Part shown: positions 1-15,800 of the stretch, piece after piece
Numbering within the stretch: position 1 is the first letter of the stretch
How the letters are laid out: every line of letters begins with the position of its first letter
From: Fodinibius sediminis
GTDB taxonomy: Bacteria > Bacteroidota > Rhodothermia > Balneolales > Balneolaceae
Direction: 5' to 3'
NCBI RefSeq assembly: GCF_900182555.1
Contig: NZ_FXTH01000010.1
Location: forward strand, 1-64,000
DNA: 64,000 nucleotides
Notes under the pieces: generated by a model
What the model was told of the DNA's origin: nothing
What the model saw: the letters and a program-made list of their open reading frames with translations, nothing else
Database searches by the model: none
Position numbers and translations under genes: made by a program

Positions 1-93
1 CACCCCGAACATTCCGGCTATGCTGGCGGCCGCGCCGGCAAACAAGGATTTGATGATTGAACGTCGTGATCGTTTATCGTCTGTAAATTCCAT
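1..93 (-). CDS. N-terminus of a Tat-exported protein (cut by window edge)
   Basis: Reading the minus strand from an ATG at 93-91 gives 31 open codons that run off the left edge. The residues include S-R-R-S-I-I-K followed by a hydrophobic alanine/glycine-rich stretch (L-F-A-G-A-A-A-S-I-A-G), which fits a twin-arginine (Tat) signal peptide. The mature protein is outside the window, so no function can be given. It is the last visible gene of a minus-strand run, 81 bases after the SMP-30-like gene. Two of the genes just upstream also carry Tat signals, so it probably belongs to the same exported pathway. The frame and start are seen directly; that it is a real gene is inferred from the signal and the context. 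Confidence 0.6.
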   Translation of the reverse strand, partial: MEFTDDKRSRRSIIKSLFAGAAASIAGMFGV

Positions 94-174
94 AATACTG
101 TTCCGTTATTGTGTAATATTGAAATTAAACCTATTTTCTTTGGTGGCTGTAATAACAACCCTTTTAGACCCGGG

Positions 175-1134
175 TTACCGTTCAGTTTTGAGTTTCCAGC
201 TCCTGCCCGGTTTATCCACCCTGAATGATTGGATATTACCGGTATCTGCTACGGTTACATATACCGTACGACCGTCGGGACCGCCAAACGCCAGATTTGT
301 TGTACTCTTACCCTCAACCATGGGGATCTCGCGCATCAGTTCTCCCCGTGGCGATATTTTAGCCACCACCCCTTTGCCGTGCCGCGTCAGGTATAAGTTC
401 CCATCCACATCACAGCGCATGCCATCCATACCGTAATCATCAAAGGATATAAACCGGCGTTTATTACTGATCTCCCCCTGCTCAGACAGATCATAGGCCC
501 AGACAACCCGCTGCACCGATTCATTCACATACAAGGTATTCTCATCGGGACTGACCTCTACGCCGTTGGTCGTACCCATGTCCTTTTCAAGCAGCGTTAT
601 AGTACCACCAGTGTCAATGCGCCACAGCTGCCCTGTAGACTCACTCCAGTTGGGGTCGCTTGCATACAGCACATCATTCGCCCCGATGGCAATATCATTG
701 GGCTGGTTCATCGCTGGTTCATGGGCATAGGTACTGATCTTCCGGGTCTTCATGTTAACCTTCAGTATATTGTGATTGACATAGTCTGCAACCAGCATCT
801 CCCCATCACGATTGAACCTTATACCATTGCCAATGCTATCACCCGGGAGTTCTACAAACAGGCTGGCCTCCCCGTCGGGCGTCACCCGGCCGATGGTATG
901 CTGGCGGGCAAAGTTCACCGCATACAGATTCCCTTTTTCATCAACCGCGGGGCCTTCGGCCCCATCGGTGAAACTTCCGGGTTCGGTTACATGCCTGCTT
1001 GTGTACAGTTCATCATTCTCTTGGGCCGTGTTTTGAGAGGCGGCGCAGCCCAGGGCCCCCAAGGGAGAGCTTAGCAGCAGACCTCCCCCGACAACCTGTA
1101 AAAAATGACGCCTGTTCATTTTATGCTTGTACAT
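175..1134 (-). CDS. SMP-30/gluconolactonase-like beta-propeller lipoprotein, Tat signal
   Basis: 319 aa. The N-terminus carries N-R-R-H-F-L-Q followed by a hydrophobic segment and a lipobox L-G-A-L-G-C with the lipidated Cys at residue 30, so it looks like a Tat-exported lipoprotein. The mature part has the repeats of a six-bladed SMP-30/gluconolactonase/LRE propeller, for example EGPAVDEKGNLYAV near residue 60, NGIRFNRDGEMLVADY near 100, QPNDIAIGANDVLYASD near 145 and NGVEVSPDENTLYVNE near 190. Family members hydrolyse sugar lactones using a divalent metal. The first ATG is chosen because an AGGA ribosome site lies about 9 bases upstream. It sits 27 bases after the PLP-enzyme gene in the same run. 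Likely role here: opening of the lactone made by the neighbouring sugar dehydrogenase. The family is confident; the substrate is not. Confidence 0.85.
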   Translation of the reverse strand: MYKHKMNRRHFLQVVGGGLLLSSPLGALGCAASQNTAQENDELYTSRHVTEPGSFTDGAEGPAVDEKGNLYAVNFARQHTIGRVTPDGEASLFVELPGDSIGNGIRFNRDGEMLVADYVNHNILKVNMKTRKISTYAHEPAMNQPNDIAIGANDVLYASDPNWSESTGQLWRIDTGGTITLLEKDMGTTNGVEVSPDENTLYVNESVQRVVWAYDLSEQGEISNKRRFISFDDYGMDGMRCDVDGNLYLTRHGKGVVAKISPRGELMREIPMVEGKSTTNLAFGGPDGRTVYVTVADTGNIQSFRVDKPGRSWKLKTER

Positions 1135-1161
1135 AAGTCGGATCCTTTCTGAGTATATTCA

Positions 1162-2394
1162 TTAAACAGCCTGGCTGAGCACTTCGCGGACCCGCCGGCC
1201 AACGATACCCACCTGGTCAGGCTTCATCATAACTACAGTGATATAGAGCCCTTCATCGTTGGAGGACACTTCAATGCGGGGCTCGCCTTCCTGAAGCTTC
1301 TTAACGACATCCTCAGGTTTTATTTGCACACGGCTTTGATCCCAGCTCAACTGCAGATCGGGGAAATGGTTTGCCGGCCCCGAGTTCACTTTGCGTTCAC
1401 TGGTCACCGTGGGCACCTTCTCAGCTTCCGCGGCAATGGTTTTGGTACGGCCTACCCATTCTTCCCACTGTTGTTCGTGGTCACGCTCCAGGTAAGACTC
1501 CAGGGCAACCATCATCCCAAAAATCTCCTCCTTGTTCACTTTCATCCCCCTTCCGATGGAATCAGAATGAGGGTTATGATTCAGCTTTGCTGCTTCAATA
1601 AGGTCTTTTCGTCCATACAACAGGCCCGAACTTTGCGGCCCCCGTATCGCTTTACCACCCGAGAATGTCACCAGGTCAAAACCAATATCAATATACTTGA
1701 ACAGATTATCCGGCGGGGGCACATCCGCGGCCGCATCAATAAAGGAAGGAATGTCATGCTTTTTACTGATAGCAACAAACTCCTCATGCCCAATGGTATG
1801 TTCAAATCCCCCGAACTGGGCAGCCGCGTTAAAAAACAGGCTCATTACTGTTCGATCATTGATAGCCTCCTCCATCTCCCGGGCACTTTCAACTTCAACC
1901 ATCTTCACGCCCGTGTTACGCACAGCATGATCATAGCTGTATCGGTGCCTTTTCTGGATAATCACTTCTCGCCGGGGGCCGGAAATGTTGGGCAGTTTTT
2001 TTATCATCTCCTCATCGGTGCCGGTGATGGCCGCTGCGGTACCCAGGGTGAGCGCTCCTGCGGCCCCGGAAGTTACCATAGCCGCTTCACAATTCAACAT
2101 CTCCGCAATGCGCTCCCCGACTTTATCCTGTACCTCGTAAAGGTTGGCAAATTCATGCGAGGTTGATTCAATGGCCTGTACCACCTCCGGCTGCATCAGC
2201 GAACCCGACAAGAAGGTTAGTGTTCCCCTTCCATTAATCAGTGTTTCGATCCCCAGCTCCTCGAACAGGTCCCGCTCTGCGGAGGCCGATGATGCTTCCT
2301 TCGAGGATGCTGCCATTCCCATTTTCGAAGCTGCAATTCCGCCAAAGAGGGGAAAACTTGCAAGCATTTTCAACATCTTTCTCCTGCTAATCAT
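1162..2394 (-). CDS. Tat-exported SelA/DgaE-like PLP enzyme
   Basis: 410 aa of the aminotransferase-like PLP fold that includes SelA (selenocysteine synthase) and DgaE (D-glucosaminate-6-phosphate ammonia-lyase). The PLP lysine is K248 in T-F-S-G-G-K-A-I-R-G-P-Q; D220 in S-F-I-D-A-A-A-D should contact the pyridine nitrogen; the phosphate-binding region is T-S-G-A-A-G-A near residues 108-114. The N-terminus S-R-R-K-M-L-K-M-L plus a hydrophobic stretch is a near-consensus Tat signal, which fits a cofactor-loaded enzyme folded before export. A true SelA would act on tRNA in the cytoplasm, so SelA function is unlikely. I infer an extracytoplasmic ammonia-lyase or beta-eliminase, supported by the exported RidA two genes upstream and the sugar oxidation genes on both sides. 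The fold is confident; the reaction is a hypothesis. Confidence 0.82.
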   Translation of the reverse strand: MISRRKMLKMLASFPLFGGIAASKMGMAASSKEASSASAERDLFEELGIETLINGRGTLTFLSGSLMQPEVVQAIESTSHEFANLYEVQDKVGERIAEMLNCEAAMVTSGAAGALTLGTAAAITGTDEEMIKKLPNISGPRREVIIQKRHRYSYDHAVRNTGVKMVEVESAREMEEAINDRTVMSLFFNAAAQFGGFEHTIGHEEFVAISKKHDIPSFIDAAADVPPPDNLFKYIDIGFDLVTFSGGKAIRGPQSSGLLYGRKDLIEAAKLNHNPHSDSIGRGMKVNKEEIFGMMVALESYLERDHEQQWEEWVGRTKTIAAEAEKVPTVTSERKVNSGPANHFPDLQLSWDQSRVQIKPEDVVKKLQEGEPRIEVSSNDEGLYITVVMMKPDQVGIVGRRVREVLSQAV

Positions 2395-2423
2395 AATAAC
2401 CTTCCTTTTAAATTAGAATTATC

Positions 2424-4157
2424 TTAATTCTCAGTACTGCTGCGTATCTTCTTGACTTCCTCAACGGAAACCGCACGGGCGTTATTTCCGAAACTCTTTC
2501 TAATATAAGTTAATACCTGGGCCACCTCATCATCACTCAGAAAGCTGTGCTGAGGCATGACATTATTATACATTTGTCCATTTACTTCTATGGATCCCTC
2601 CAAGCCGTTAAGTATGACGCCGATCAATCGTTCTTTATCCCCGGTAACCCAGTCTGTGCCGGCCAGCGGTGGATACCGATCGGTTCCCTCTCCATTCTGC
2701 TGGTGGCAGGAGGCACAGTAGGTCCTGTAGACCTGCTCCCCGCCGGCAATTTTTTCTTTCTGCAGGTTATCTTTTTCTTGATCCGGCTGGCGAATGTTGC
2801 TGGCCGTCTCCTTCTCCTCTTTCATCCGGGCCAGTGCTTCTTCGCCGAACGACGCCTTGTCGCCGGTATACCTGATGCGCCAGATGCGCCCATTCCTGTC
2901 TTCCGAGACGTACAGTGATCCATCCGGCCCCACAGCCAGTCCGGATGGCCGGTGTTTGGCATCGCTGGTATTGACAATGGGATCCACCTCCGCAAACCCA
3001 TTGGCAAAGACCTCCCACTCACCGGCAACCTCGCCGTTCTCAAAGGGGACAAATGCGATGAAATAACCGGCCTGCGGGTAGGGATTCCGAATGGTGGAGC
3101 CGTGCCAGGCGATAAAAGCGCCGTCCTGGTAATGATCCGGAAACTGATCACCCTGGTAAAACAGCAGGTCATTGGGGGCAAAATGGCCCGGAAAGCCCAC
3201 AACCGGATCATCAAAATCGCTGCAGCGGCCTATTTTCTGCCCGTCTCCGCCATACTGAGGGGCCAACACTTTTTTGCCCTGCATATGATCATAATAACAA
3301 TAGGGCCATCCAAAATTACTCCCCTCTGTAACACGCATAAATTCCTCGGATGGAAGCAGGGCATTCTCCCATGGGCTAAACTCATTGGGAAAGAGACGGT
3401 GGAGGTTGTCACTTCCGTGCATGGTAACGTATAAATTGTCATCCACCGGATTCCAGTTCATGGCCACAATGCTGCGCAACCCCGTAGCATACAACTCCCC
3501 GTCTTTCTGCAGCTGATTTTTCTTGTCGGCACTAAAGCGCCATATGCCGCCGTGATCCTTAAGCACAGGACACGGATCCAGTCCGGCCACCCCGGGGGTG
3601 CGCTTCGGTTCCTGGCAGGAATTATTGGGCGCTCCGAAGGGTACGTACATGTTCCCCCGGCTGTCGAACGACAACGGCTTGGTGTTATGCTCGTGATCGC
3701 CGTGCTCATGATCATCAAACAGTATGGTATCGATTTTGGCATCCGGCAGCAGCTGCCCGGGAACCAGTTTCTGACGATAGACCCACAAGCTGGAACTGTA
3801 GTACAGATATCCATTGTGAATTTTCATTCCCGTCTCAGCCCAGTGGCCGTCACGGTTTCCGAATCGTTTGAATACATCCATAATTCCATCACCAGTGGTA
3901 TCCCGCATGGCCAGGGCCCCCGGCTGCTCATCAGACCCCTTCAGTTTAACGTAGATGTCTCCATTGCTGTTGACGGCCAGGTGGCGTGCCTTCCCAATGC
4001 TATCGGCAACAATTGTCGCCTCAAATCCCTCGGGCAATAGCAAATCAGCTTTATTCGAATTGACCGATGCATTCTCTTCGGGACTGCACTGAACCAGGAA
4101 ACTCAGGAGTAAAACAAGGAAAAGATAAGTAAGGGATAAGTTATTGAAGTTATTCAT
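2424..4157 (-). CDS. PQQ-type sugar/sorbosone dehydrogenase fused to cytochrome c, lipoprotein
   Basis: 577 aa. The signal peptide ends in a lipobox with Cys24 (L-V-Q-C-S). Residues about 40-435 form a glucose/L-sorbosone dehydrogenase-type beta propeller, with G-S-N-F-G-W-P-Y-C-Y-Y-D and H-R-P-S-G-L-A-V-G-P-D-G-S-L-Y as clear family motifs. From about residue 470 there is a class I cytochrome c domain: heme site C-A-S-C-H at 481-485 and a probable Met ligand at about 534 (V-M-P-Q-H). Such fusions pass electrons from sugar oxidation through the heme to the respiratory chain at the outer face of a membrane. It lies 29 bases before the PLP-enzyme gene. Its expected product, an aldonolactone, is what the SMP-30-like neighbour should hydrolyse. 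PQQ dependence is inferred from the family; no PQQ synthesis gene is in the window. Confidence 0.87.
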   Translation of the reverse strand: MNNFNNLSLTYLFLVLLLSFLVQCSPEENASVNSNKADLLLPEGFEATIVADSIGKARHLAVNSNGDIYVKLKGSDEQPGALAMRDTTGDGIMDVFKRFGNRDGHWAETGMKIHNGYLYYSSSLWVYRQKLVPGQLLPDAKIDTILFDDHEHGDHEHNTKPLSFDSRGNMYVPFGAPNNSCQEPKRTPGVAGLDPCPVLKDHGGIWRFSADKKNQLQKDGELYATGLRSIVAMNWNPVDDNLYVTMHGSDNLHRLFPNEFSPWENALLPSEEFMRVTEGSNFGWPYCYYDHMQGKKVLAPQYGGDGQKIGRCSDFDDPVVGFPGHFAPNDLLFYQGDQFPDHYQDGAFIAWHGSTIRNPYPQAGYFIAFVPFENGEVAGEWEVFANGFAEVDPIVNTSDAKHRPSGLAVGPDGSLYVSEDRNGRIWRIRYTGDKASFGEEALARMKEEKETASNIRQPDQEKDNLQKEKIAGGEQVYRTYCASCHQQNGEGTDRYPPLAGTDWVTGDKERLIGVILNGLEGSIEVNGQMYNNVMPQHSFLSDDEVAQVLTYIRKSFGNNARAVSVEEVKKIRSSTEN

Positions 4158-4288
4158 GCCCTATAACAGAAACAAATTAAGTTATAATCGCTGTGACTAT
4201 CTTACTTTTTTATGAAAATTCAAGCGAAAAACGTATTGCGCGAATCACATTTAGGCTGCAGAAACGCATATGGTTTTAATCCTATGCG

Positions 4289-4882
4289 CTAATCTTCAAC
4301 TTCCACAACCATGTCAATCTCAACCGGAATATTGCCCGGCAGCGATCCCATGCCAACAGCTACACGAGCATGCTTGCCCCGCTGGCCAAAAACCTCCCCC
4401 ATCAAGTCTGAAAAGCCATTGATAACCTGGGGATGCTCGGTAAAATCAGAAGCGGCATTGACCATTCCGAAGACCTTGACGATTCGTGTTACCTTGTTGA
4501 GATCCCCGACTTCGGCCTTGAGGGAGGTCAGCAGCGAGATTGCTGTAAGACGAGCAGCCTCCTGTCCTTTCTCGAGGGATATCTCATCGCCTACCCTTCC
4601 AATAACCTGGCTTCCGTCCGGCTTATCCGGTCCGTGGCCAGATAAAAATACAAGATTACCGGTACGTACACTCGGCACATAATTGGCAACGGGAGGGGTT
4701 GGTTTTTCACCCAGGGTGATACCGAGCTCCGCGATCCGTTCTTCAACATCATAGTCATAATTATTCGTTTCCTGTCCCGATGGGTCCTCCGCTTGCCGGG
4801 CACTGCAGGAAACAAGAAGAAAACCAATGCTCAACAGCGATAAAAGCCTGGTAAAATTTTCAGAGTAAAGGTATTTCATCAT
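4289..4882 (-). CDS. RidA (YjgF/UK114) family lipoprotein
   Basis: 197 aa, longer than the usual ~130 aa because of an N-terminal signal with lipobox L-L-V-S-C (Cys26) and a linker of about 45 residues. The RidA fold starts near V-P-S-V-R-T-G-N-L-V-F-L-S-G-H-G. The catalytic arginine region is kept as H-A-R-V-A-V-G-M-G-S-L-P, with V-E-I-D-M-V-V-E-V close to the C-terminus. RidA proteins speed hydrolysis of enamines and imines released by PLP dehydratases. Classical RidA is cytosolic, so an exported lipoprotein form next to an exported PLP enzyme is unusual and informative. Two adjacent ATGs could start it. The gap of 131 bases to the dehydrogenase gene holds nothing clear. The family is confident; the substrate is not. 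Confidence 0.88.
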   Translation of the reverse strand: MMKYLYSENFTRLLSLLSIGFLLVSCSARQAEDPSGQETNNYDYDVEERIAELGITLGEKPTPPVANYVPSVRTGNLVFLSGHGPDKPDGSQVIGRVGDEISLEKGQEAARLTAISLLTSLKAEVGDLNKVTRIVKVFGMVNAASDFTEHPQVINGFSDLMGEVFGQRGKHARVAVGMGSLPGNIPVEIDMVVEVED

Positions 4883-4947
4883 AATCGATAGGATTAACGA
4901 TTGTGCATTAACAAAAACATCCGGTGTTCAGCAGAGCTTATCCATGG

Positions 4948-5002
4948 GCATAGTAATAACGGGGAGGGAGTGTAGTGATAATCTCCACTCCCCGTTACTA
5001 TG
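4948..5002 (-). terminator. Long hairpin after susD
   Basis: The gap between susD and ridA holds a long interrupted inverted repeat: GCATAGTA...AACGGGGAG on the left and its complement ending in CCCCGTTACTATGC on the right, about 20 paired bases around a 12-base loop, with one short bulge per arm. There is no long T run, so it may be a structured terminator or an mRNA-stabilising hairpin that lowers expression of the enzymes relative to SusCD. Confidence 0.6.
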
Positions 5003-5075
5003 CTCTTCCTTTATAGAATTGTAGAGTAAGCAGACAGCCAACCTAATAACCAATAATCAGAGCAACAGACGGCAG

Positions 5076-6674
5076 CTACTTGGCATCCCACCAGAGCTTG
5101 GTTGTTGCTTCATCAGCAGGCGAAGTAAGTAGCTGGATGGCATTCTGAACCGATTCTGCATTATCCGAGTACTCTCCGCTTGCAAAGGGGATTCTCTGTA
5201 CATCATCCCCGACTGGAATAGCCGGATTCAGCGAATTGATACGGTCATACAGCGCGGGGTAGCCGGTCCTCCGGTATTCGGCCCATGCTTCCATGCTATT
5301 CGGGTAGAGGGCCAGCCACTTCTGGGTAATTATCTGCTCCAGCTTCCGCTCTTTGCTGCCCGCACTTTCAAAGGCCACGGGAATATCGGTCAAGGCGGGA
5401 CTGTCCCAGATATCCTGAGGAGATTTGGGGGTATTGCCACTTTCGATATAGGCCTCAATTTCGGCAGAGGTAGCCGTTGTGCTTTCCATCATTGACATGC
5501 GGATACCCTCTTCGTACAGTGCCTCGGCCGTACCACCCATATTCCAGCCTTCCAGAGCACCTTCAGCCCGGAGGAAGTAGACCTCCGCGGCATTCATGAT
5601 TTCAATGGGCGGGTTGGATCCGCCTTTGCTGTCGTTTTGCCAGTCGATGCCCATGTCAGAATACCGGTCGTTCAGACCCTCGTCCTCTACACCCGACTCC
5701 TTCCGTGTCTTGGGCAGCCCGTTTCTGAATCCCTCATAGGGATTGCCGTCACCGTCCTGGTCGCCGTTGACCGCAGGCTGAAAATATTTGGCCTGGCGGG
5801 GATCTTCATACCCTTCCAGCGCACTTTCCATGGCCGCACTCATCCGGAATTCTCCCCAGTCGGTGATCGTTGTGTACGGATTCCTGGAGTTCTGAGTGGT
5901 CAGGAGCTTGGCGTTATGCGAATTATCCATCATAACACCATCGCTGACCGCTTTTTCAGCTTCCGTCTTGGCCAACTCCGGCTCTACATATTTGACCCTC
6001 ATGGCCAGTCGAAGCCTCAGCGAATTTGCAAACCGCAGCCACTGATCCACGCTGCCTTCGTAGATCTGGTCATTACTTCCAAAGGCATTGCCACCCGCGT
6101 TGTTTTTCAGCACAGCTACGGCTTCATCAAGGGTCACGAAGAAATCCTTGTAGACGTCTTCCTGGGAATCATAGGGTACTTTTGTTTCTCCATTTCCGAA
6201 CTCGGAATAGATTATTGGTCCCCAGTAATCCGTAATGCGATGGTAAAGCTGTACGCGCATGACCTTGGCAACAGCATTTTCAAGGGTCATCCCGTTTTCC
6301 TCGCTGAAGTTCTCCACAAAGTCGAGCTGCGGGGCCGCAGCGCCGTAAAACCCATTCCAGGCTCCGTTCTGCCAACTTCGAATCATGACGTTCTGATCAG
6401 AATCGAAGTTCGGGGCTGTAGTCGCAAAATACTGGGCATAGATATCAGCATGAAGCGACTGCATAAGCTGAAAGGGGCCGGGGCTTCCGTACAGCCCATA
6501 GAACTGGGCCTGTGCAAAAGCCTGTCCCAGCTGCGCCGACTCCAGGTTACTGGCTACCAGCTGGTCATCAGGTGTATTCAGTTCGTCAAAGTGATCGGTA
6601 CAGCCCGCCATCAGTAAGATGACCAACAGGCCGGTACTCGTCATTTTAAGTATATTCTTTTTAAGGCTATTCAT
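5076..6674 (-). CDS. SusD/RagB-like outer-membrane lipoprotein
   Basis: 532 aa. Signal peptide with lipobox L-M-A-G-C (Cys25) followed by the usual F-D-E-L-N-T-P-D start of the mature SusD-like proteins of the SusD_2 group. TPR-like helices and the typical motifs F-A-N-S-L-R-L-R-L-A-M-R, E-V-Y-F-L-R-A-E-G-A and I-I-T-Q-K-W-L-A-L-Y-P-N are present. It is the surface binding lid of a SusCD importer, paired with the SusC gene that ends 36 bases upstream. The ligand cannot be read from the sequence; the neighbouring enzymes suggest a sugar, amino sugar or sugar acid. ATG start at 6674; length is normal for the family. Confidence 0.93.
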   Translation of the reverse strand: MNSLKKNILKMTSTGLLVILLMAGCTDHFDELNTPDDQLVASNLESAQLGQAFAQAQFYGLYGSPGPFQLMQSLHADIYAQYFATTAPNFDSDQNVMIRSWQNGAWNGFYGAAAPQLDFVENFSEENGMTLENAVAKVMRVQLYHRITDYWGPIIYSEFGNGETKVPYDSQEDVYKDFFVTLDEAVAVLKNNAGGNAFGSNDQIYEGSVDQWLRFANSLRLRLAMRVKYVEPELAKTEAEKAVSDGVMMDNSHNAKLLTTQNSRNPYTTITDWGEFRMSAAMESALEGYEDPRQAKYFQPAVNGDQDGDGNPYEGFRNGLPKTRKESGVEDEGLNDRYSDMGIDWQNDSKGGSNPPIEIMNAAEVYFLRAEGALEGWNMGGTAEALYEEGIRMSMMESTTATSAEIEAYIESGNTPKSPQDIWDSPALTDIPVAFESAGSKERKLEQIITQKWLALYPNSMEAWAEYRRTGYPALYDRINSLNPAIPVGDDVQRIPFASGEYSDNAESVQNAIQLLTSPADEATTKLWWDAK

Positions 6675-6710
6675 AATAAATTCCCTTAAGACATTTGCAT
6701 TAAAATTTTT

Positions 6711-9700
6711 CTAAAAATCAATCTTGATATTGGCACCAAACGTACGGCTTGAAGGAGGCGTAAATGATTCGAAACCTTCAGCGGCAGCATTCGTTCCTGT
6801 CATCAGATCGGGATCCAGATTTTCGGAGGCCCGGTACAGGAAGAGCAGGTTCCGACCTACCAGGGAAAGCTTCAGGTTTGAAATGGGCAGGGAAGAAATC
6901 ACCGATTCGGGCAAATTATAACCGAGGGTGAGCTCCCGCAGCCGTGTATTGGTAGCCTCTACTACAAATGCTTCTCCCACCGGCGTATTTCGGCCTCCAA
7001 TGGAAGTCCAGAAGGTTTGGGCATCCACTTCCTGGGTATTCTTGCTGTATTCAGGATTCTCATCCGTGCCACCAGTCCGCATGACGGCAGACTCACCGCC
7101 GAAAAGATTATCTCCAAACACCAGGCCTCCGTCGCGTCCGTTCAGAGTCTGTTTGGTCAGCCCGTCATCAAACAAAATAGCGTTGGTCAGCGAAGCGATG
7201 GAGCCACCCTGCCGATGATCAATCAAGAAGCTCAGGCTCAGGTTCTTATACGACAACGTACTTCGGATGCTACCTCTCCAGTCGGGTGAGAAGTTCGCCA
7301 CCGGAACAGTACGCCCGCCGGTTACCTGGGGCACCCCGTTCTCGCCTACAATAACATCCCCGTCTTCGGTTCGCTCCCAACCCCGGGAGTAAACCTGCCC
7401 AAACGGCTTGCCCTCCTCAATGCGGAAGGCGCGGAGGAAGTCGGTAGCCAGCGTAAGGATCGGCTGATCCTCGGAAATCTTTTCCACCATGTTGTCATTG
7501 GCAGAGTAGTTCACGTTGAGATCCCAGTTGAAATCACGGCTTTGCACCGGCGTAGCCGAGAGCAAAATCTCATACCCTTTGTTGGAAACGTCTCCACCGT
7601 TGGTGAAGAAGGAGCTGGCACCGGACCCAACCGGTACGGCAACCTGGAATAACTGGTCGCGGGTATTGGTCTTGTAGTAGGTGAAATCCAGCCCCAGGCG
7701 ATTCTCAAAGAATTGGAGGTTTGCTCCCAATTCGTATGATTCTGTTTCTTCAGGCTTCAGGTTCTCGTTCGGCAGCGTCGTATCCAGCTGCAGGAAACCG
7801 TTGTTACCCCCGGACGAAAGGCTGGCCGTTCGGATGGTCATAAACGGCGGTGCACTGTTACCCACCTTCGCCCATGATCCGCGCACGCGGGCCCCGCTCA
7901 GCACGTCGGGCAGACCGGAAATCAATTCCGTCAGGCTTGCAGACAATCCGACAGATGGATAGAAATACGAACGATTATCCTCCGGCAGGGTGGAGCTGAC
8001 ATCATTACGCCCGGAAAAGTCCAGGTAGATGGCATCTTTCCATGCCAGCTGCCCAAAGGCGTAGGCCGAATAGATATCCATCGGTGAACCGATATTCTCT
8101 CCTGCCGCTACATTCTGCGTATTGGAGATGGCGAAGAAATTGGGAATCGTAAGTGCATTATTCGTATTGGCACTCATGGAAGAGTTGCGTTCCTTCTTGA
8201 TATTACCGCCAACGTTGGCTTCCAGGTACCAATCTTCCGTGAGATCCTGGTTGTAGGAAAGCAGGAAGTCACTGTTCCATTCATAACCATTGCTCTTGGC
8301 TATGCTATAATAGCCGTTCTGGGCAATTACATAGGTATCATTGTAGCGCCTGAATTCGGACTCACCACTGCCGCCGTCATAGGCCGACCGGACCATCAGG
8401 CTTAAATAGTCTGTGAAATCGTAGGTCAGTGAAGCCAGCGCATTGATGCGATCGCTTACGTTTTCGTTCAGATTTCGGTTCATCGTCCAGTAGGGATTGG
8501 CACCGCCGTTCGACAGCGGGTTCCAGTAATTCTGGCGGAGCATTCCTTCTGAATTGGTGTAGTCAAACATCTCGGCATCCGCCGTACGGATGTTACGCGG
8601 CAAGCGGTAAATATGCCGGATGGGGTTTGCAAAGCTTTCACCGGTCGGCAGCTGGTTGTCAATGCTCTGGCGCATGTACGACAGCTTGCTGTCCAGCGAA
8701 AGATTATCCGACAGCTGACTGGTCACCCGCGCACTGATGTTGTGGCGGTCCAGTTCGTTCTTGGGCACTACACCCTCCGCATTAGTGAACGTATAGGAAA
8801 ACAGAGCCTGCACGTTCTCACTACCCATGCTGGCGGTCAGGTTATTCGAAGAGTTGTACCCTGTCTGAAAAGCCTCTTCTACATTGTTCGGCTGTGGATT
8901 AAATGCATACTGCTCGCCCTGCATGTCGGGGGCCGGCGACCAATGGTCCACCATCTGCCCGTCCATTTGGGGTCCCCAGCTCGACTCAGAACTGGGCGAG
9001 TAGACCCCGGATGTTCCCTGCCCGTAAACATTTTGATACTTGGTCAACAGTATAGGGTCGCGAAGCATGAAGTTACTGCTGAAGCTGAAATCTATTTCAC
9101 CTTCCCGACCTTTCCGGGTGGTAACGACGATAGCACCGTTCTGCGCCTCACTACCATACAGTGCAGCCGCATTCGGTCCTTTCAGCACGTTAATGCTTTC
9201 GATGTTGTCCGGGTTCATATCACTGATATCACCGCGTATCGGCACCCCGTCAACCACATACAACGGCTGACTGCTCCCTGATATGGAACGGTTACCCCGC
9301 AGCACCACCCGCGAAGCTCCACCAACACCGGTACCAGCCTGGTTAACCTGCATACCGGCCACTTTACCAGACAGTGAATTCACTACATTCAGTTCCCTGG
9401 CTTCGGTCAATCCCTCATTATCAACACTTTCGGTACTGTACGTCAGTGAACTACTCTCTCGCTCAAGACCAAAGGCGGTAACCACCACTTCATCACCCGC
9501 AATAGCCTGGGGCGACAAGTTAACATCTATGCTTGTACGTCCGCTTATCGGTACTTCCTGGGTCTGGTAGCCGATAAATGAAAAAATAAGCGTATCCTGC
9601 AGAGACGGCGCATTCAGCTCGTAACTTCCCTGGCTGTCTGTGGAGGTACCTATTGTACTTCCCTTGACCATTACGTTTACGCCCGGAAGGGGGGCTCCTG

Positions 9701-10130
9701 TCTGGGCATCGGTGACCGAGCCCGTGACGACCTCCAGATTCATCGGATTTTTCATCTCCGTATCCCTGGGCAAAATTCCAAGTGTCCGGTGCGTCAGCTT
9801 CTTATAGGTGAAGTTGAATTCAGCAAGAAGCCGATCCAGAAGGTCAAACAGATCGCGGTTCAAGTATAACACCTTATGTTCTGACACATATTGATCAGCA
9901 AGCAACTTACTGTCAAACAAAAAATTGACATTATACTCATTCTCAATCAGCGATAACACTTCCTGGAGATGAGTCCCCGGTGCTATTTCCTGCAGATTCT
10001 GGTTATTCCAATCTGTAGCACTGACATACACATTTCTATCGTACTGATTATTCTGGGCCGCCGTCCACTGCGTAGATACGACCAGCAAAATGATCAGACT
10101 TCCTATCCATTTGTACCTTTTCATAATCAT
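6711..10130 (-). CDS. SusC/RagA TonB-linked outer-membrane transporter with STN signalling domain
   Basis: About 1139 aa from the ATG at 10130; the open frame extends to 10196 but that would overlap fecR, and the signal peptide (M-I-M-K-R-Y-K-W-I-G, ending at T-A-A-Q) begins here. Order: signal peptide, an STN (secretin/TonB N-terminal) domain around residues 40-115, a carboxypeptidase-D-like domain (V-T-G-S-V-T-D-A-Q-T-G-A-P-L-P-G-V-N), a plug with L-Y-V-V-D-G-V-P-I and G-P-N-A-A-A-L-Y-G-S, then a 22-strand-type barrel ending in aromatic-rich strands and I-K-I-D-F. The STN domain normally contacts FecR, and fecR and an ECF sigma gene lie just upstream, so this is a transducing transporter that senses its own substrate. 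Partner: the SusD 36 bases downstream. Confidence 0.94.
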   Translation of the reverse strand: MIMKRYKWIGSLIILLVVSTQWTAAQNNQYDRNVYVSATDWNNQNLQEIAPGTHLQEVLSLIENEYNVNFLFDSKLLADQYVSEHKVLYLNRDLFDLLDRLLAEFNFTYKKLTHRTLGILPRDTEMKNPMNLEVVTGSVTDAQTGAPLPGVNVMVKGSTIGTSTDSQGSYELNAPSLQDTLIFSFIGYQTQEVPISGRTSIDVNLSPQAIAGDEVVVTAFGLERESSSLTYSTESVDNEGLTEARELNVVNSLSGKVAGMQVNQAGTGVGGASRVVLRGNRSISGSSQPLYVVDGVPIRGDISDMNPDNIESINVLKGPNAAALYGSEAQNGAIVVTTRKGREGEIDFSFSSNFMLRDPILLTKYQNVYGQGTSGVYSPSSESSWGPQMDGQMVDHWSPAPDMQGEQYAFNPQPNNVEEAFQTGYNSSNNLTASMGSENVQALFSYTFTNAEGVVPKNELDRHNISARVTSQLSDNLSLDSKLSYMRQSIDNQLPTGESFANPIRHIYRLPRNIRTADAEMFDYTNSEGMLRQNYWNPLSNGGANPYWTMNRNLNENVSDRINALASLTYDFTDYLSLMVRSAYDGGSGESEFRRYNDTYVIAQNGYYSIAKSNGYEWNSDFLLSYNQDLTEDWYLEANVGGNIKKERNSSMSANTNNALTIPNFFAISNTQNVAAGENIGSPMDIYSAYAFGQLAWKDAIYLDFSGRNDVSSTLPEDNRSYFYPSVGLSASLTELISGLPDVLSGARVRGSWAKVGNSAPPFMTIRTASLSSGGNNGFLQLDTTLPNENLKPEETESYELGANLQFFENRLGLDFTYYKTNTRDQLFQVAVPVGSGASSFFTNGGDVSNKGYEILLSATPVQSRDFNWDLNVNYSANDNMVEKISEDQPILTLATDFLRAFRIEEGKPFGQVYSRGWERTEDGDVIVGENGVPQVTGGRTVPVANFSPDWRGSIRSTLSYKNLSLSFLIDHRQGGSIASLTNAILFDDGLTKQTLNGRDGGLVFGDNLFGGESAVMRTGGTDENPEYSKNTQEVDAQTFWTSIGGRNTPVGEAFVVEATNTRLRELTLGYNLPESVISSLPISNLKLSLVGRNLLFLYRASENLDPDLMTGTNAAAEGFESFTPPSSRTFGANIKIDF

Positions 10131-10146
10131 GTGATCTTTGTTCTTA

Positions 10147-11208
10147 TTATTGTTTGATAATGAGGGTCTCTCCTGTTTGATGAATTTGAAAACCAAAAAT
10201 TCCGGCTACTGCATCGGTAAGGCCATTCAAGCTTCTGAAATCGACCGACCCGGAAAGCGTTCTGTTCAGCATTTCCAGATCCTGAACTTCAACCGTCACT
10301 CCGTAGGTTCGTTCGATACGATTGATTAAAACTGACAAGGGCGTATTATCAAAAAACAACTCATTGGTGGACCATGAGGTATACACAGCCGGGTTTACCT
10401 TTTTGAGCTCAATGTGGCTGCTCTCTCCGTGAAATCTCACCAGTTCACCCGGCTCGAGCGTTGTTGTCTCTTCATTTCCGGTATTATTTTCCGGCAAAAT
10501 ACGCACTTCTCCCTCCGCCAGCACTACCCGAGTTCCGGTTCCATAGGTGTCCATGGTAAATCGGGTACCCCAGACCGCAGCGGTACCATCGTCTGTTTCA
10601 ACCACAAACTTGGGCGATCCCTTCTTTTCCTTCGGGGCAATATCAAAATAGGCCTCCCCCTTCAAGACCACCCGTTTAACCGGCTGGTCCAGCCAGTTCT
10701 CCTTATAGGAAAGTTCTGAATTAGCAGCCAAAATGATTGTAGATCCATCTGAAAGGTTAATTGTCTTCTTTTCGGCATAGTTGGTCTGTACCCTCTGCAC
10801 GGCCACAGGCTCTTCCACGGCAGCCGGATCCTGATACATATAGGCCGCGTATCCCACAAACAAACCAACCAGGAGGACAGCAGCGACTTTTAAAAAGAGA
10901 CTGAAATAATCCCGACTTCTGCCTTTTCTCACCTGTTTAACCCGTGTACTGCCTATGGACTGTTTTTCAGGAACGACATCAGCTCTTACTCTTGCCCATT
11001 CACGCTGTACATCAGGCAGGGCGGGACGTTTAAAGGCATAGCCCGAAATTTTCTGTTGTGCCCGAATAGCTAATTCTCGATTTTTCTTACTCTTTTTAAC
11101 CCAGAGGTTCCAACGCTCAGCCTGTCGTTCGTTCAAATCCCCCTCCACCCATAATGCAAAGGAAGGATTGTTTATCAATTCGTCTATTGTGTATTCCTTA
11201 TCTTTCAC
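10147..11208 (-). CDS. FecR-family anti-sigma factor
   Basis: 353 aa with a GTG start. Cytoplasmic N-terminal part (residues 1-100), one membrane segment at about 104-125, a FecR domain at about 145-245 (T-I-N-L-S-D-G-S-T-I-I-L-A-A-N-S and V-W-G-T-R-F-T) and a C-terminal DUF4974-type domain (L-S-V-L-I-N-R-I-E-R-T-Y-G-V). FecR holds or releases its ECF sigma factor depending on contact with the STN domain of the cognate transporter. It ends 16 bases before the SusC start. The sigma gene is upstream after an unusually long gap of 227 bases, so fecR-susC may also have its own promoter. Confidence 0.93.
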   Translation of the reverse strand: MKDKEYTIDELINNPSFALWVEGDLNERQAERWNLWVKKSKKNRELAIRAQQKISGYAFKRPALPDVQREWARVRADVVPEKQSIGSTRVKQVRKGRSRDYFSLFLKVAAVLLVGLFVGYAAYMYQDPAAVEEPVAVQRVQTNYAEKKTINLSDGSTIILAANSELSYKENWLDQPVKRVVLKGEAYFDIAPKEKKGSPKFVVETDDGTAAVWGTRFTMDTYGTGTRVVLAEGEVRILPENNTGNEETTTLEPGELVRFHGESSHIELKKVNPAVYTSWSTNELFFDNTPLSVLINRIERTYGVTVEVQDLEMLNRTLSGSVDFRSLNGLTDAVAGIFGFQIHQTGETLIIKQ

Positions 11209-11435: not shown

Positions 11436-12047
11436 TCACAGGGCCACGAGCAGAAGAAAAGGAAGCAGGGAAATGGCGATATCGGATAAATGATCATCCA
11501 TGATAGTTCTCAGCCTCTTGACCGCCCGGTGAATATGGTTGCGAATGGACTGGTAGTTGATAGCGAGGATCTCTTCGATCTCATCGTAGCTCATCCCGTT
11601 GAAATACTTCAGATAAAGCACCTCTTTCTGGCGATCAGGGAGCGCATTGAGAGCTTCATGCAGGGCCTGCCGTTTGTCAAGCTTCATTTCATCCCTTATG
11701 ATTATCTCTTCTGGAGAAAACTGAATCTGGACCGTCGTATGCACCTCTCCGTCCCAGTTTACAAAATACCTTCGCTTCTCCTGGATTCGTTTTAACAGGC
11801 TCCGTCGCAATGAAGCCAGCAGATAAGCTTTGACCGACTCTACCTCCCCCAAATTCTCGCGCCGATCCCACAATATTACAAATAGTTCATGAATACAATC
11901 TCTTGTCAATTCCGGACGACTTGAGAGCTTAAGACCATATCCATACAGGTCTTCGTAGCACAGTTTGAAAAGCTGCTCCCATGCTTCCAGATCGCTGTCT
12001 AAAAACGACTTCCAAAGCTGATGTTTGTTCAAAGTATCATCCATCAT
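11436..12047 (-). CDS. ECF RNA polymerase sigma factor, SusC-linked type
   Basis: 203 aa. Region 2 covers about residues 20-90 (W-E-Q-L-F-K-L-C-Y-E-D-L-Y-G-Y-G, then D-C-I-H-E-L-F-V-I-L-W-D-R-R). Region 4 is at about 125-180 (A-L-H-E-A-L-N-A-L-P-D-R-Q-K-E-V-L-Y-L-K-Y-F-N-G-M-S-Y-D... with a helix-turn-helix I-N-Y-Q-S-I-R-N-H-I-H-R-A). A hydrophobic C-terminal tail (L-L-P-F-L-L-L-V-A-L) follows, as in many Bacteroidota sigma factors tied to SusC. It should direct transcription of the fecR-susC-susD locus when released by FecR. Two consecutive ATG codons could start it. It is the first gene of the minus-strand run. Confidence 0.93.
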   Translation of the reverse strand: MMDDTLNKHQLWKSFLDSDLEAWEQLFKLCYEDLYGYGLKLSSRPELTRDCIHELFVILWDRRENLGEVESVKAYLLASLRRSLLKRIQEKRRYFVNWDGEVHTTVQIQFSPEEIIIRDEMKLDKRQALHEALNALPDRQKEVLYLKYFNGMSYDEIEEILAINYQSIRNHIHRAVKRLRTIMDDHLSDIAISLLPFLLLVAL

Positions 12048-12386: not shown

Positions 12387-12716
12387 TTATAGCTGTGCTT
12401 CCAACTGCTTTTTAAGCTGAGCCTTTGGAACGGCTCCGACAATCTGGTCAACAACTTCGCCATCTTTAAAGATCAGCAGTGAAGGTATGCTTCGAATACC
12501 GTATTTGGTCGATGTCTCGGGATTCGAATCCACATCCACCTTGCCGACCTTGGCCTTGCCTTCAAATTCGCCGGCCAGTTCTTCCACTACAGGACCAACC
12601 ATACGGCAGGGGCCGCACCATTCCGCCCAAAAGTCTACCAGTACCGGCTGACCGGCATCTGCATTCAAAACATCTTCCTCGAAAGAATCGTCTGTAAATT
12701 TTAGTGCTTTACTCAT
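12387..12716 (-). CDS. trxA: Thioredoxin
   Basis: 109 aa, the usual length for thioredoxin 1. Active site [10 protein letters not shown] at about residues 31-40, the cis-proline loop S-I-P-S-L-L-I-F at about 77-84, and no signal peptide, so it is a cytosolic disulfide reductase. It reduces ribonucleotide reductase, peroxiredoxins and other partners after reduction by thioredoxin reductase. It is 111 bases after dnaE on the same strand and ends at a clear terminator, so it may have its own promoter or be read with dnaE. Confidence 0.97.
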
Positions 12717-12827
12717 AACATCTTAGTCATTGGTTAAAGTTATATTCTTTCAATCATTTCGTTAAAATATCGTATAATTTTTTTCTACAATCATATCATT
12801 TATTGTTATACAGGATATTGCAAAAAT

Positions 12828-15800
12828 TTATCGGCCGTTATTGGCATTCCGTCTCAAATTGACCGATTCGTTGCCCACCAGTGACTTAAGTCCACCCAGC
12901 AATTCATCATTGGGATCAACAACAAACTTCCGCACGTGCATGGCAAACGGCCGTTTTGCCTCCTTGCTCAACACATTGAACCGGACATTCGTTTCTCCCT
13001 GGTGCTGCTCAAAAAGATCGGCCATGCGATGCAGCTGCTCCTCATCCACCTGCGAGGTATCAATATCAATTTTGAGTTCTATCTGGTTTTGATACTTTTC
13101 CCGCATGCTCTCGATTCGCTCAAAGCTGTTGGCAATAATCTGCGGTTTTCCCCGACGCGTGTCGATGCTCCCATCCACCACAACCAGCGTATCCACCTGG
13201 ATCATCCCCAGGCTGCGGTCATAGACCTCATTAAAGGCGATTACCTCCACCGTGCCGTGCAGGTCTTCCATTTGGAGAAAAGCAAAAGGACGCCCCTTTT
13301 TGTCCGTGACCCGTTTAACCTGTGTAATGATACCCGCACACCGCACATCGGTACGGTTGGGAAGGGACTCCATTTCCTTTGCATCCAGCGTATGAGAGCA
13401 GAACATCTCCACATCCTCCTTGTATTTGCTCAGCGGATGCCCACTCAAATAAAAACCGATCAGCTCGCGCTCCTTGTTGAGTCGTTCAATATTAGACCAG
13501 GGGTGCACCTCATCAAGCACCGGTTCATCGATGGCCGAAGCACTGCCGGTACCGTCGCCAAACAGGTCCGACTGGTTGGAGTTCTCCATCTCCTGCACCC
13601 GTGAACCATAACTGATGATCACTTCCATATTTTCGAGAAGCTGCCGACGGTTCCTGTTCAGCTCATCAAACGCACCGGCCTGGATCAGGCTTTCCAGTGT
13701 TCGCTTGTTGCAGATCCGAGAGTCAATGCGGCGGGCAAAATCATACACCGATTCAAACATACCATTCTCTCGGCGCTCTTTTACAACCTCTTCGACGGCA
13801 TTGGAGCCGACCCCCTTAATTGCCTCCATGCCGTACTGGATACGTCCGTCCACAGCCACGAACTTACCGGCCCCGGTATTGATATTGGGAGGATCCACCG
13901 TGATGCCGTTATGGTAGCACTCCTCGATGAACTTCGAAACCTTGTCGATATCTCCCATGTTGTGCGTGAGCACCGCCGCCATATACTCGGGGGTATAATT
14001 GGCTTTAAAGAAGGCCGTCTGGTAGGCCACAACCGAGTAGGCCGCCGAGTGCGATTTGTTGAATCCGTAGTTGGCGAACTCAGCCATGATATCGAATAGC
14101 TCTTCGGCCTTGGATTCCGATACGCCGTTTTCGATAGCCCGCTCAGTAAAGACCTTGCGCTGCTTCGCCATCACTTTCTGCTTTTTCTTGCCCATCGCTC
14201 TCCGTAGCAGATCGGCTTCGCCAAGCGAATAATTGGCAATAATCTGCGCCGCTTTCATGATCTGCTCCTGGTAGATCATAATACCGTATGTCGGTTTCAG
14301 CAGCTCCTCCAGGTCCGGATGCGGGTACTCCACCTCGCTTTGGCCATGCTTCCGGTCGATATATTCGGGGATAAACTGCATCGGCCCCGGACGGTAGAGC
14401 GCGTTCATGGCAATGAGATCGTCAAGGGAAGTGGGCTTCAGCTGCTTGAGATACTTACGCATGCCGTCAGACTCAAACTGAAAGGTCCCGATGGTATTTC
14501 CTTTCTGATAGAGCTCGAAAGTTTTGTCATCGTTTTCAGGAATGTCGTCGAGCTCGTAGTGGACGCCGTGATTTTCTTCCACATACTTGATGGCGGTCTT
14601 CAGGATGGAAAGGGTTTTCAGACCAAGGAAATCCATCTTCAGCAACCCGCACTCCTCCGCGTGCGGCCCATCGTACTGGGTAATAAGTTCTTTGTCTTTC
14701 GACAAGGCAACCGGCACATATTCACTGATTTCTCCGGGTGCAATAATGACGCCGGCCGCATGAATACCGGTCTGCCGGGCCGATCCCTCCAGGGTGCGTG
14801 CAAAACGCATCATTTTCTGCACCTGCGGATCGGGATGCTCAAACAATTCCCTGATATCCTTGGCCGACTCAGGATTCTTGGACGGATCCAGCACCTTGTC
14901 AAAAGTGTTAACCCCCGGCTGGTCGGGAAACATCTTGGTAATGCGATTCACCTCTTCCAGGGGAACTCCCAGCACCCGTCCCACATCACGTATAGAGGTC
15001 TTGGCCTTCATCGTGCCATAGGTCACGATCTGCGCCACATTGTTCCGGCCGTACTCTTCGACCACGTAGTCAATGACTTCCTGCCGGCCGCTGTCATCGA
15101 AGTCAATATCAATATCGGGCGGACTTACCCGCTCGGGGTTTAGAAATCGCTCAAAAAGGAGGTCGTGCCGCAGGGGGTCGATATTGATGATCCCCAGGCA
15201 GTAAGCCACAATAGAGCCGGCTGCGGAACCCCGGCCGGGCCCCACAAATACATCCCGGCGGCGGGCCTCCGTGGTGAAATCCTGTACAATCAGGAAATAG
15301 CCCACAAAATCCATCTCCTTGATAATCATCAGCTCCTGCTCAATGCGTTCACTGACATCATGCGTAATTTCCCCATACCGTTCCTTAGCCCCTTCATAAG
15401 TAAGTTTGCGCAGATAATCGAGCATGGAATCGTACTCATCGGGAATGCTGTAATGGGGAAGCAGCAGCTCGGAACTCAGATCGATATCATCGACCTTCTC
15501 AACAATCTCGTTTGTATTGTCAATTGCCGCCGGCTGATCACTGAACAGCTCCTGCATCTCCTCCGGCGTTTTCAAATAAAACTCCGTGTTCAGGTTATTG
15601 TGATCGTCAGTAAACCGGAACCGGTTGGGATCATCAATATCGGCATTCGTCTGCAGGGCCAGCAGGATATCATGAGCTTCCGAATCCTCTTCTTCCACGT
15701 AGTGGGAGTCGTTTGTGGCAATCATTTTCACATTGTACTCCCTGGCCCACTTGACCAGCGCCTCATTGCATCGGTTCTGATCCTGCAGGCCGTGACGTTG

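Follow-up and report, generated by a model that had tools for sequence, protein, structure and literature searches.

The window, a stretch of 64,000 nucleotides from Fodinibius sediminis whose base 1 is base 1 of contig NZ_FXTH01000010.1 (C10; source genome G000, 4.43 Mb in 50 contigs), opens with a run of minus-strand genes for a sugar dehydrogenase, a candidate lactonase, a pyridoxal phosphate (PLP) enzyme, and two Rid-family proteins, along with a SusCD pair and its regulators. Several of these carry signals for lipoprotein or twin-arginine translocation (Tat) export. Pfam and NCBIfam profile searches assigned the window genes as follows:

1..93, minus strand: 5' part of another RidA gene, of the canonical type, truncated where the contig begins; Tat-type signal SRRSIIK
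175-1134, minus strand: Tat-lipoprotein, SMP-30/gluconolactonase-like, candidate lactonase (PF08450 2e-45)
1162-2394, minus strand: Tat-type SelA/DgaE-like PLP enzyme, candidate hexosaminate ammonia-lyase (PF03841 5e-13; TIGR01437 8.8e-55; NF047797 1.3e-41)
2424-4157, minus strand: lipoprotein GSDH-type sugar dehydrogenase of the pyrroloquinoline quinone (PQQ) type, fused to cytochrome c (PF07995 4.9e-12; PF00034 2.8e-10)
4289-4882, minus strand: Rid-family lipoprotein of the PA0814/ACIAD3089-like branch (PF14588 1.1e-14)
5076-6674, minus strand: SusD-like lipoprotein (PF12741 9.7e-137)
6711-10196, minus strand: SusC-like TonB-dependent outer-membrane transporter (TIGR04056 7.4e-194)
10147-11208, minus strand: FecR-type regulator (PF04773 1.6e-16)
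11436-12047, minus strand: extracytoplasmic function (ECF) sigma factor (TIGR02937 4.7e-26, over cut-off; TIGR02985 9.5e-27, below cut-off)

The listed FecR reading frame starts with GTG and runs at its 3' end into the TTG given as the start of SusC, which leaves the true start codons uncertain. The original prediction, made from this sequence, had named these genes, apart from the cut RidA, as one run with exported enzymes; the profile searches and translations confirmed the genes and their signals, with the sigma factor gene sitting just beyond the range (1-11208) that the prediction covered.

The operon in the window is incomplete, cut at the contig end. A contig scan returned a single relative, Fodinibius roseus DSM 21986 (Balneolaceae; phylum Balneolota by NCBI taxonomy), with a PLP enzyme 86% identical and a locus (L006) that keeps the window order of sigma factor, FecR, SusC, SusD, Rid, dehydrogenase, PLP enzyme, and SMP-30. 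Past SMP-30, the F. roseus operon continues with a Tat-type RidA (L006:12426-12920; PF01042 3.4e-19), whose N-terminus resembles that encoded at window 1..93, followed by an amidohydrolase (L006:13024-14352; PF07969, over the curated cut-off of NF006689 'amidohydrolase/deacetylase') and an RraA-like protein (PF03737, 8.9e-19), both predicted to be exported, and an SBF carrier (PF01758). In the window's genome such genes are found at the end of contig C12, where the closing part of a RidA gene is followed by an amidohydrolase, an RraA homologue, and an SBF carrier (82%, 81%, and 82.5% identical to those of F. roseus). The first 95 bases of contig C4 are identical to window 1-95, part of the Tat-RidA gene. 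The assembly was therefore probably interrupted by a RidA gene that is present as a repeat, and C12 could follow either C10 or C4; the gene order of F. roseus speaks for C10. The operon's strand carries housekeeping genes farther upstream (window 12387-16310), thioredoxin-like and DNA polymerase III alpha-like by eye.

The search for the same gene set in other genomes, suggested with the original prediction, found that it recurs around the PLP gene. The 10 PLP-positive genomes are every genome in which the PLP enzyme was matched at E ≤ 1e-30 among 58 relatives and 395 genomes of the phylum (partly overlapping sets), and neighbours were counted within 12 kb of the PLP gene at the score limits of the script. 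The amidohydrolase and at least one Rid protein were present in 10/10 genomes, the dehydrogenase in 9, SMP-30 in 8, the Rid lipoprotein branch and Tat-RidA in 8 each, SBF in 7, and RraA in 6. For the window's genome this count excludes the C12 genes and the cut RidA, such that its Rid is the window lipoprotein and its amidohydrolases are those of a locus on C4, although the amidohydrolase that corresponds by synteny to that of the F. roseus operon is the one at the C12 end.

Across the 395 phylum genomes, for each of which the best 3 or 4 first-look candidates were scored, the PLP enzyme occurred in 8 (E ≤ 1e-30) that span four families (f1, f24, f29, and f47). All 8 are included both in the 12 genomes with the amidohydrolase (E ≤ 1e-60) and in the 9 with the dehydrogenase (E ≤ 1e-200), overlaps with a chance under independence of 3.6e-14 and 6.6e-16, respectively, figures that ignore kinship and are overstated because the genomes are related. 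At the looser E ≤ 1e-60, dehydrogenase matches were found in 52 of the 395 genomes, many of them stopping before the cytochrome, and one genome (G395) carries the dehydrogenase without the PLP enzyme, near GDSL-lipase and GH95 genes. Another genome, from the same family as the window's (G022; contigs L049-L055), holds 10 PLP-enzyme matches, often beside amidohydrolase copies, a large expansion that perhaps serves different sugar-derived amino acids.

Conservation was assessed in alignments that, for the PLP enzyme, took 21 of the 30 copies counted (leaving out 6 longer and 3 partial or broken ones) together with homologues from plasmids of Granulicella tundricola, the haloarchaeon Halosolutus, and Rhizobium. 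The alignments also held 17 of the 26 amidohydrolases near PLP genes plus that of Granulicella, 9 of 11 genes of the Rid lipoprotein branch plus those of Granulicella and Rhizobium, 10 of 11 Tat-RidA (RidA2) genes, all 10 dehydrogenases, all 9 SMP-30 proteins, and all 6 RraA homologues plus that of Granulicella. Export of the enzymes is predicted from motifs in these alignments. The N-termini in the window have a Tat-type motif in the PLP enzyme (SRRKMLK), the motif NRRHFLQ plus the cysteine of ALGC (by eye) in SMP-30, and a lipobox in the dehydrogenase (LVQC) and the Rid lipoprotein (LVSC). An RR or RK motif in a Tat-like setting occurs in 22/22 PLP rows from the phylum and Granulicella (two are RK, which the Tat pathway tolerates in place of RR) and in 0/2 outgroup rows (Halosolutus and Rhizobium), and RidA2 has the motif in 10/10 rows. 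A lipobox was recognised in 7/10 dehydrogenase rows (by pattern) and in 8/9 phylum rows of the Rid lipoprotein branch (4 by pattern, 4 by eye), the ninth having a signal without a lipobox, while a hydrophobic N-terminal stretch is found in 18/18 amidohydrolase and 7/7 RraA rows. TatC is encoded in 10/10 PLP-positive genomes, the window's genome included.

The nearest solved homologue of the PLP enzyme is Salmonella DgaE (7lc0, profile match of 1.5e-73), with which the PLP lysine, the Asp, and the RxMKxxKE motif align; the pocket residues K248, D220, H150, R282, K285, and K288 are kept in 24/24 rows. Identity as a true SelA was rejected, based on a weaker match (1.6e-24) and the export motif. 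Compared to the Salmonella enzyme, the window protein has a Tat-type export motif, and no sugar kinase was identified in the F. roseus operon. A longer PLP branch (~560 amino acids; L005:274-1950(-), L048:8737-10413(-), and L060:11735-13456(-)) has a Tat-like start, adjoins amidohydrolases, and bears a C-terminal extension that is lipocalin-like by eye; the L005 copy, the sole one scanned, returned zero Pfam matches.

A structure of the dehydrogenase, predicted from a 10-sequence alignment (mean predicted local distance difference test score, 71.2) and compared by Foldseek, matched best the PQQ-dependent pyranose dehydrogenases of family AA12 (6i1t, 3e-21; also 6jt5), followed by pyranose and aldose dehydrogenases. 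Its G226/R228, GWP (283-285), HGST (352-355) with R357, and CxxCH motifs are present in 10/10 rows, and the G-x-R, GWP, and HGST-x-R motifs align with GLR, GYP, and HGSTDR of 6i1q, consistent with a GSDH propeller with the conserved Arg and Ca/PQQ motifs, residues that we take to have the catalytic roles known in that family. The solved AA12 enzymes are fungal, whereas the dehydrogenase here has a lipoprotein signal and a fused C-terminal cytochrome c. For the SMP-30 protein the nearest solved structures were 7plb, 7ris, and 8djf; it has an SGL domain, and E60, N190, and D237, presumably the metal ligands, are invariant in 9/9 orthologues. The Rid lipoprotein was closest to 3d01 (2.4e-33) and 9bk9 (7.4e-23). 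R173 is kept in 10/11 rows of its branch, the exception being the canonical-type RidA of Granulicella, and R139 in 10/10 rows of Tat-RidA; both are assumed to be the carboxylate-binding Arg of Rid imine deaminases.

For the amidohydrolase, the nearest solved structures were 8je0 (5.9e-72) and 2ogj (6.9e-62), and its alignment keeps HxH, Lys (17/18), His, and Asp, among which we presume the metal ligands to lie. A cog3964 enzyme, Atu3266, on which a literature search turned up no paper, reportedly hydrolyses R-configured alpha-acetyl carboxylates. The RraA homologue retains R182 and D183 in 7/7 rows, which we take to be the Arg-Asp metal motif of PF03737, and is matched at 7.3e-19 by 3noj, a protein named an aldolase; it may be a class II pyruvate aldolase. 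SBF carriers can move keto acids.

Clues to the substrate were found at distant loci, including 6 that were read out of 245 plasmid records matching the PLP enzyme. The G. tundricola plasmid (L064) groups RraA, PLP, RidA, a second PLP protein, an amidohydrolase, a PF10282 lactonase, and an FAD/BBE oxidase, with N-termini suggestive of export for the PLP enzyme (TRRRFLG), RidA (SRRGLLK), and the amidohydrolase (hydrophobic). The best solved match of the oxidase is an N-acetyl-D-hexosamine oxidase (7zzk, 4.2e-162). In the available text of PMC9299179, the N-acetyl-D-hexosamine oxidase of Ralstonia, perhaps the protein of 7zzk, has its highest affinity for N-acetylglucosamine (GlcNAc) and N-acetylgalactosamine (GalNAc). 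The N-acetylhexosamine (HexNAc) oxidase acts at C1, as the window dehydrogenase would, but it and its Granulicella relative are flavin enzymes unrelated to the PQQ-type dehydrogenase-cytochrome c of the window, and the plasmid lactonase is of a 7-bladed type unrelated to SMP-30. The Halosolutus plasmid (L065) carries PLP, Rid, a glucose dehydrogenase, a PF10282 lactonase, a PIG-L deacetylase, and a GH18 chitinase, so that 2/6 plasmid PLP loci have a sugar oxidase and a lactonase.

Within the phylum, a paralogue locus in F. roseus groups PLP, amidohydrolase, PIG-L, and TctABC genes, with two SGSH-type sulphatases upstream (L047:5458-9578) hinting at sulphated amino sugars, and GSDH and GlcNAc 2-epimerase-family genes lie beside PLP copies in G022. 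In a further genome (G178) the dehydrogenase is away from PLP; ~1.6 kb off on the opposite strand is a gene resembling kinases of 2-keto-3-deoxy-gluconate or -galactonate (KDG/KDGal; below cut-off), which adjoins a KDPG/KHG aldolase gene (over cut-off), and a regulator-like gene (by eye) lies between the dehydrogenase and the kinase-like gene. A sugar-isomerase-like gene is also near this dehydrogenase (L097:5147-11251).

The operon is best read as encoding the extracytoplasmic oxidative catabolism of an N-acylated amino-aldose, probably an N-acetylhexosamine (GlcNAc or GalNAc), a reading to which we give slightly better than an even chance. The SusCD pair, controlled by the ECF sigma factor and FecR, would carry the ligand into the periplasm, where the PQQ-type dehydrogenase would oxidise C1 to a lactone, passing electrons via its own cytochrome c to respiration, and the SMP-30 protein would open the lactone to a HexNAc-onate. 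The exported amidohydrolase would then release acetate to leave a hexosaminate, from which the PLP enzyme, loaded with PLP in the cytoplasm and exported folded by Tat, would eliminate ammonia, and the two exported Rid proteins would convert the enamine or imine to KDG or KDGal. Where present, the exported RraA homologue could cleave KDG/KDGal to pyruvate and glyceraldehyde, and the SBF carrier may move the acid product across the inner membrane. The sequences themselves show the gene content and its recurrence, the export motifs, the conservation of PLP-pocket, Rid, and heme-binding residues, and the filling of two steps elsewhere by unrelated enzymes; each reaction is our inference, and so are its substrate, its place in the sequence of steps, where in the cell it occurs, and the action of RraA as an aldolase. 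The HexNAc would perhaps derive from sulphated or other glycans.

Exported aldose oxidation, lactone opening, DgaE-like deamination, and Rid clean-up were the core of the original prediction, and that logic gained from the recurrence in 10 genomes, the Tat-like motifs in 22/22 PLP rows, and the unrelated enzymes that fill two steps in the acidobacterium. The pathway was too short as first drawn, as it now takes in the amidohydrolase, a second RidA, the RraA-like protein, and SBF. As to the substrate, an aldose such as glucosamine had been proposed; an amino sugar remains the preferred type, but free glucosamine is less likely than a hexosamine that is N-acetylated, given a deacylase candidate near PLP in 10/10 genomes and the relative of HexNAc oxidase. 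The recurrence of the same reaction types with different enzymes (C1 oxidation, lactone opening, N-deacylation, ammonia elimination with Rid, and keto-deoxy acid use) argues for one pathway.

A number of observations weigh against this reading. The PLP enzyme falls below the curated cut-offs of both TIGR01437 (DgaE-family) and NF047797 (142.8 of 600 bits and 186.1 of 385.3 bits), a further difference from Salmonella DgaE that leaves it DgaE-like and not filed as DgaE. The amidohydrolase has Asp (16/18) or Glu (2/18) where 8je0 and 2ogj have a His that is presumably a metal ligand, and thus its metal site may differ. The supply of PQQ to the dehydrogenase is unproven: pqqB was over its cut-off in 0/10 genomes, as in 0/14 controls, with no match in the 6 same-family genomes and weaker matches in 4/10, including a near full-length one in G178 (106.5 of 245 bits), and pqqC was matched in 0/12 genomes and in no control. 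Bacteria can scavenge PQQ. SusC and SusD were near PLP in only 5/10 genomes, FecR in 4, and the sigma factor in 3, making the uptake and sigma genes the least conserved part of the set, and RraA and SBF, both absent near PLP in G007 and G244, are optional. Four genomes of one genus (f18, g51) carry the amidohydrolase without the PLP enzyme; of the 3 of these 4 loci that were retrieved, one (G384) had its surrounding genes scanned, and there a PF10282 lactonase adjoins the amidohydrolase.

The wider gene neighbourhoods are also mixed. A look for further acidobacterial clusters, covering plasmids, found the HexNAc-oxidase relative at E ≤ 1e-60 in 1 record, that of Granulicella itself, and the Natronosalvus, Rhizobium, Haladaptatus, and Mesorhizobium plasmid PLP loci are without a sugar oxidase-lactonase pair, the Rhizobium locus having an amino-acid context. 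Amidohydrolase relatives on Thermomicrobium, Chelativorans, Pantoea, and Mesorhizobium plasmids (4 of 234 records) had no such PLP partner among the annotated genes. On the Pantoea plasmid, RraA and an anion symporter are beside the amidohydrolase, so amidohydrolase-RraA pairs exist without the pathway. Alginate-lyase-family (at the C4 locus of the window's own genome), GH32, and peptidase-like genes also neighbour PLP loci, and GH20 hexosaminidase was not enriched (7/10 PLP-positive and 6/10 PLP-negative genomes) and was dropped as a supporting supply gene.

The PLP, Rid, and amidohydrolase proteins might instead act on N-acyl D-amino or hydroxy amino acids, with the dehydrogenase and lactonase handling a separate sugar that enters via the same SusCD. 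OngC, an enzyme of similar chemistry, also deaminates D-serine and D-threonine according to the accessible part of PMC9537276, the Rhizobium homologue is grouped with Rid, asparaginase, and aspartate ammonia-lyase genes, and in G022 (L054) PLP, Rid, and amidohydrolase genes are beside those for an M81 peptidase and a gamma-glutamyltranspeptidase, with no sugar oxidase among the scanned genes. Such a split is nonetheless considered unlikely, as PLP is accompanied by a sugar C1-oxidising enzyme and a lactonase in the majority of the 10 genomes, and in Granulicella and Halosolutus both steps are filled by enzymes of like type but unrelated origin. Alternatively, as in the original prediction, the exported enzymes might turn free glucosamine or another hexosamine into hexosaminate and release its ammonia there, with the amidohydrolase serving another purpose or branch. 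In favour of this, the genes in the window require no deacetylase, glucosaminate-6-phosphate is the substrate of the nearest named relative of the PLP enzyme, and the HexNAc oxidase takes glucosamine and galactosamine too, with lower affinity (PMC9299179, available text). Against this, the amidohydrolase is in the F. roseus operon, near PLP in 10/10 genomes, and in 8/8 PLP genomes of the 395, and genes for PIG-L family deacetylases occur at two distant PLP loci, and we hold a free hexosamine to be distinctly unlikely. A third possibility is that the exported pathway serves a more acidic sugar, with PLP, Rid, and RraA acting on amino sugar acids that are uronate-like or sulphated and come, for example, from polymers resembling glycosaminoglycans or alginate. 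This would agree with the SGSH-type sulphatases upstream of PLP and amidohydrolase in F. roseus and with the alginate-lyase-family gene of contig C4, which is beside SusCD-like and amidohydrolase genes. Both, however, are outside the operon itself and the HexNAc-oxidase relative argues for a neutral HexNAc, making this substrate class improbable.

Extracytoplasmic HexNAc oxidation can also be put in a bolder form, in which N-acetylhexosamine would be converted to pyruvate, glyceraldehyde, acetate, and ammonia wholly outside the cytoplasm, with energy gained directly via cytochrome c and with a Tat-exported PLP ammonia-lyase, two exported Rid proteins, and an exported RraA aldolase among its enzymes. 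Such a pathway would have been assembled separately in this Bacteroidota group and in Acidobacteriota, the enzymes that oxidise the sugar and open the lactone being unrelated between the two. The Granulicella evidence for separate assembly is one plasmid record, and this version is offered as a tentative and rather doubtful extension.

Similar chemistry is known from the cytoplasm. As far as the available parts of PMC9537276 and PMC12017989 describe it, the ong pathway of Pseudoalteromonas prydzensis deacetylates N-acetylglucosaminic acid (GlcNAc1A), which derives from the action of lytic polysaccharide monooxygenases and enters across the inner membrane by an SSS carrier, and deaminates the product to KDG with PLP; a RidA-family protein is essential, and OngB and OngC are predicted to be cytoplasmic. 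The window system would share with ong, as described there, a non-phosphorylated route, an amidohydrolase-superfamily deacetylase, a PLP deaminase, a RidA-family protein, and TonB-dependent uptake, and, like ong, it encodes the deacetylase candidate, PLP enzyme, and Rid together (amidohydrolase and at least one Rid near PLP, 10/10 genomes). The same sources place OngC in fold type III and OngB among the D-aminoacylase-type enzymes (subtype V), whereas the window system combines a SelA/DgaE-like PLP enzyme with an amidohydrolase of the NF006689/2ogj type and also includes export motifs, a sugar dehydrogenase, and a lactonase. Orthology to OngC and OngB was rejected, the amidohydrolase being nearest to 8je0 and 2ogj, and PpOngB (9kb1) matches only positions 22-89 of the amidohydrolase profile (6.7e-8). 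As two defining enzymes differ, the window system is not a member of ong, though it may work like it. In Natrarchaeobius, the accessible text of PMC12343721 describes DGA, GDH, and RutC in chitinase clusters, a comparable predicted route from glucosamine via glucosaminate to a keto-deoxy acid with a DgaE homologue, a glucose dehydrogenase, and RutC/Rid, but the authors propose a phosphorylated intermediate, and the related Halosolutus PLP protein is without an RR/RK motif. The original prediction knew of no described pathway with all these steps exported. An exported version was not found in the open-licence literature by a search of limited recall, and only the exported form seems undescribed, since ong carries out the deacetylation and deamination of GlcNAc1A in the cytoplasm (PMC9537276, available part).

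If the proposed HexNAc pathway is correct, the nitrogen and acetyl group of an amino sugar would leave before the substrate enters the cytoplasm and the keto acid alone would be imported, with respiration fed directly by amino-sugar oxidation. In that case the PLP-dependent elimination and the hydrolysis of imines by Rid would take place in the periplasm or at the cell surface, which would be unusual. The reading provides testable functions for proteins annotated as 'selenocysteine synthase-like', 'amidohydrolase/deacetylase', exported RraA, and Rid lipoprotein, and the ong pathway, which oxidises chitin in the cytoplasm, would gain a counterpart that is exported.

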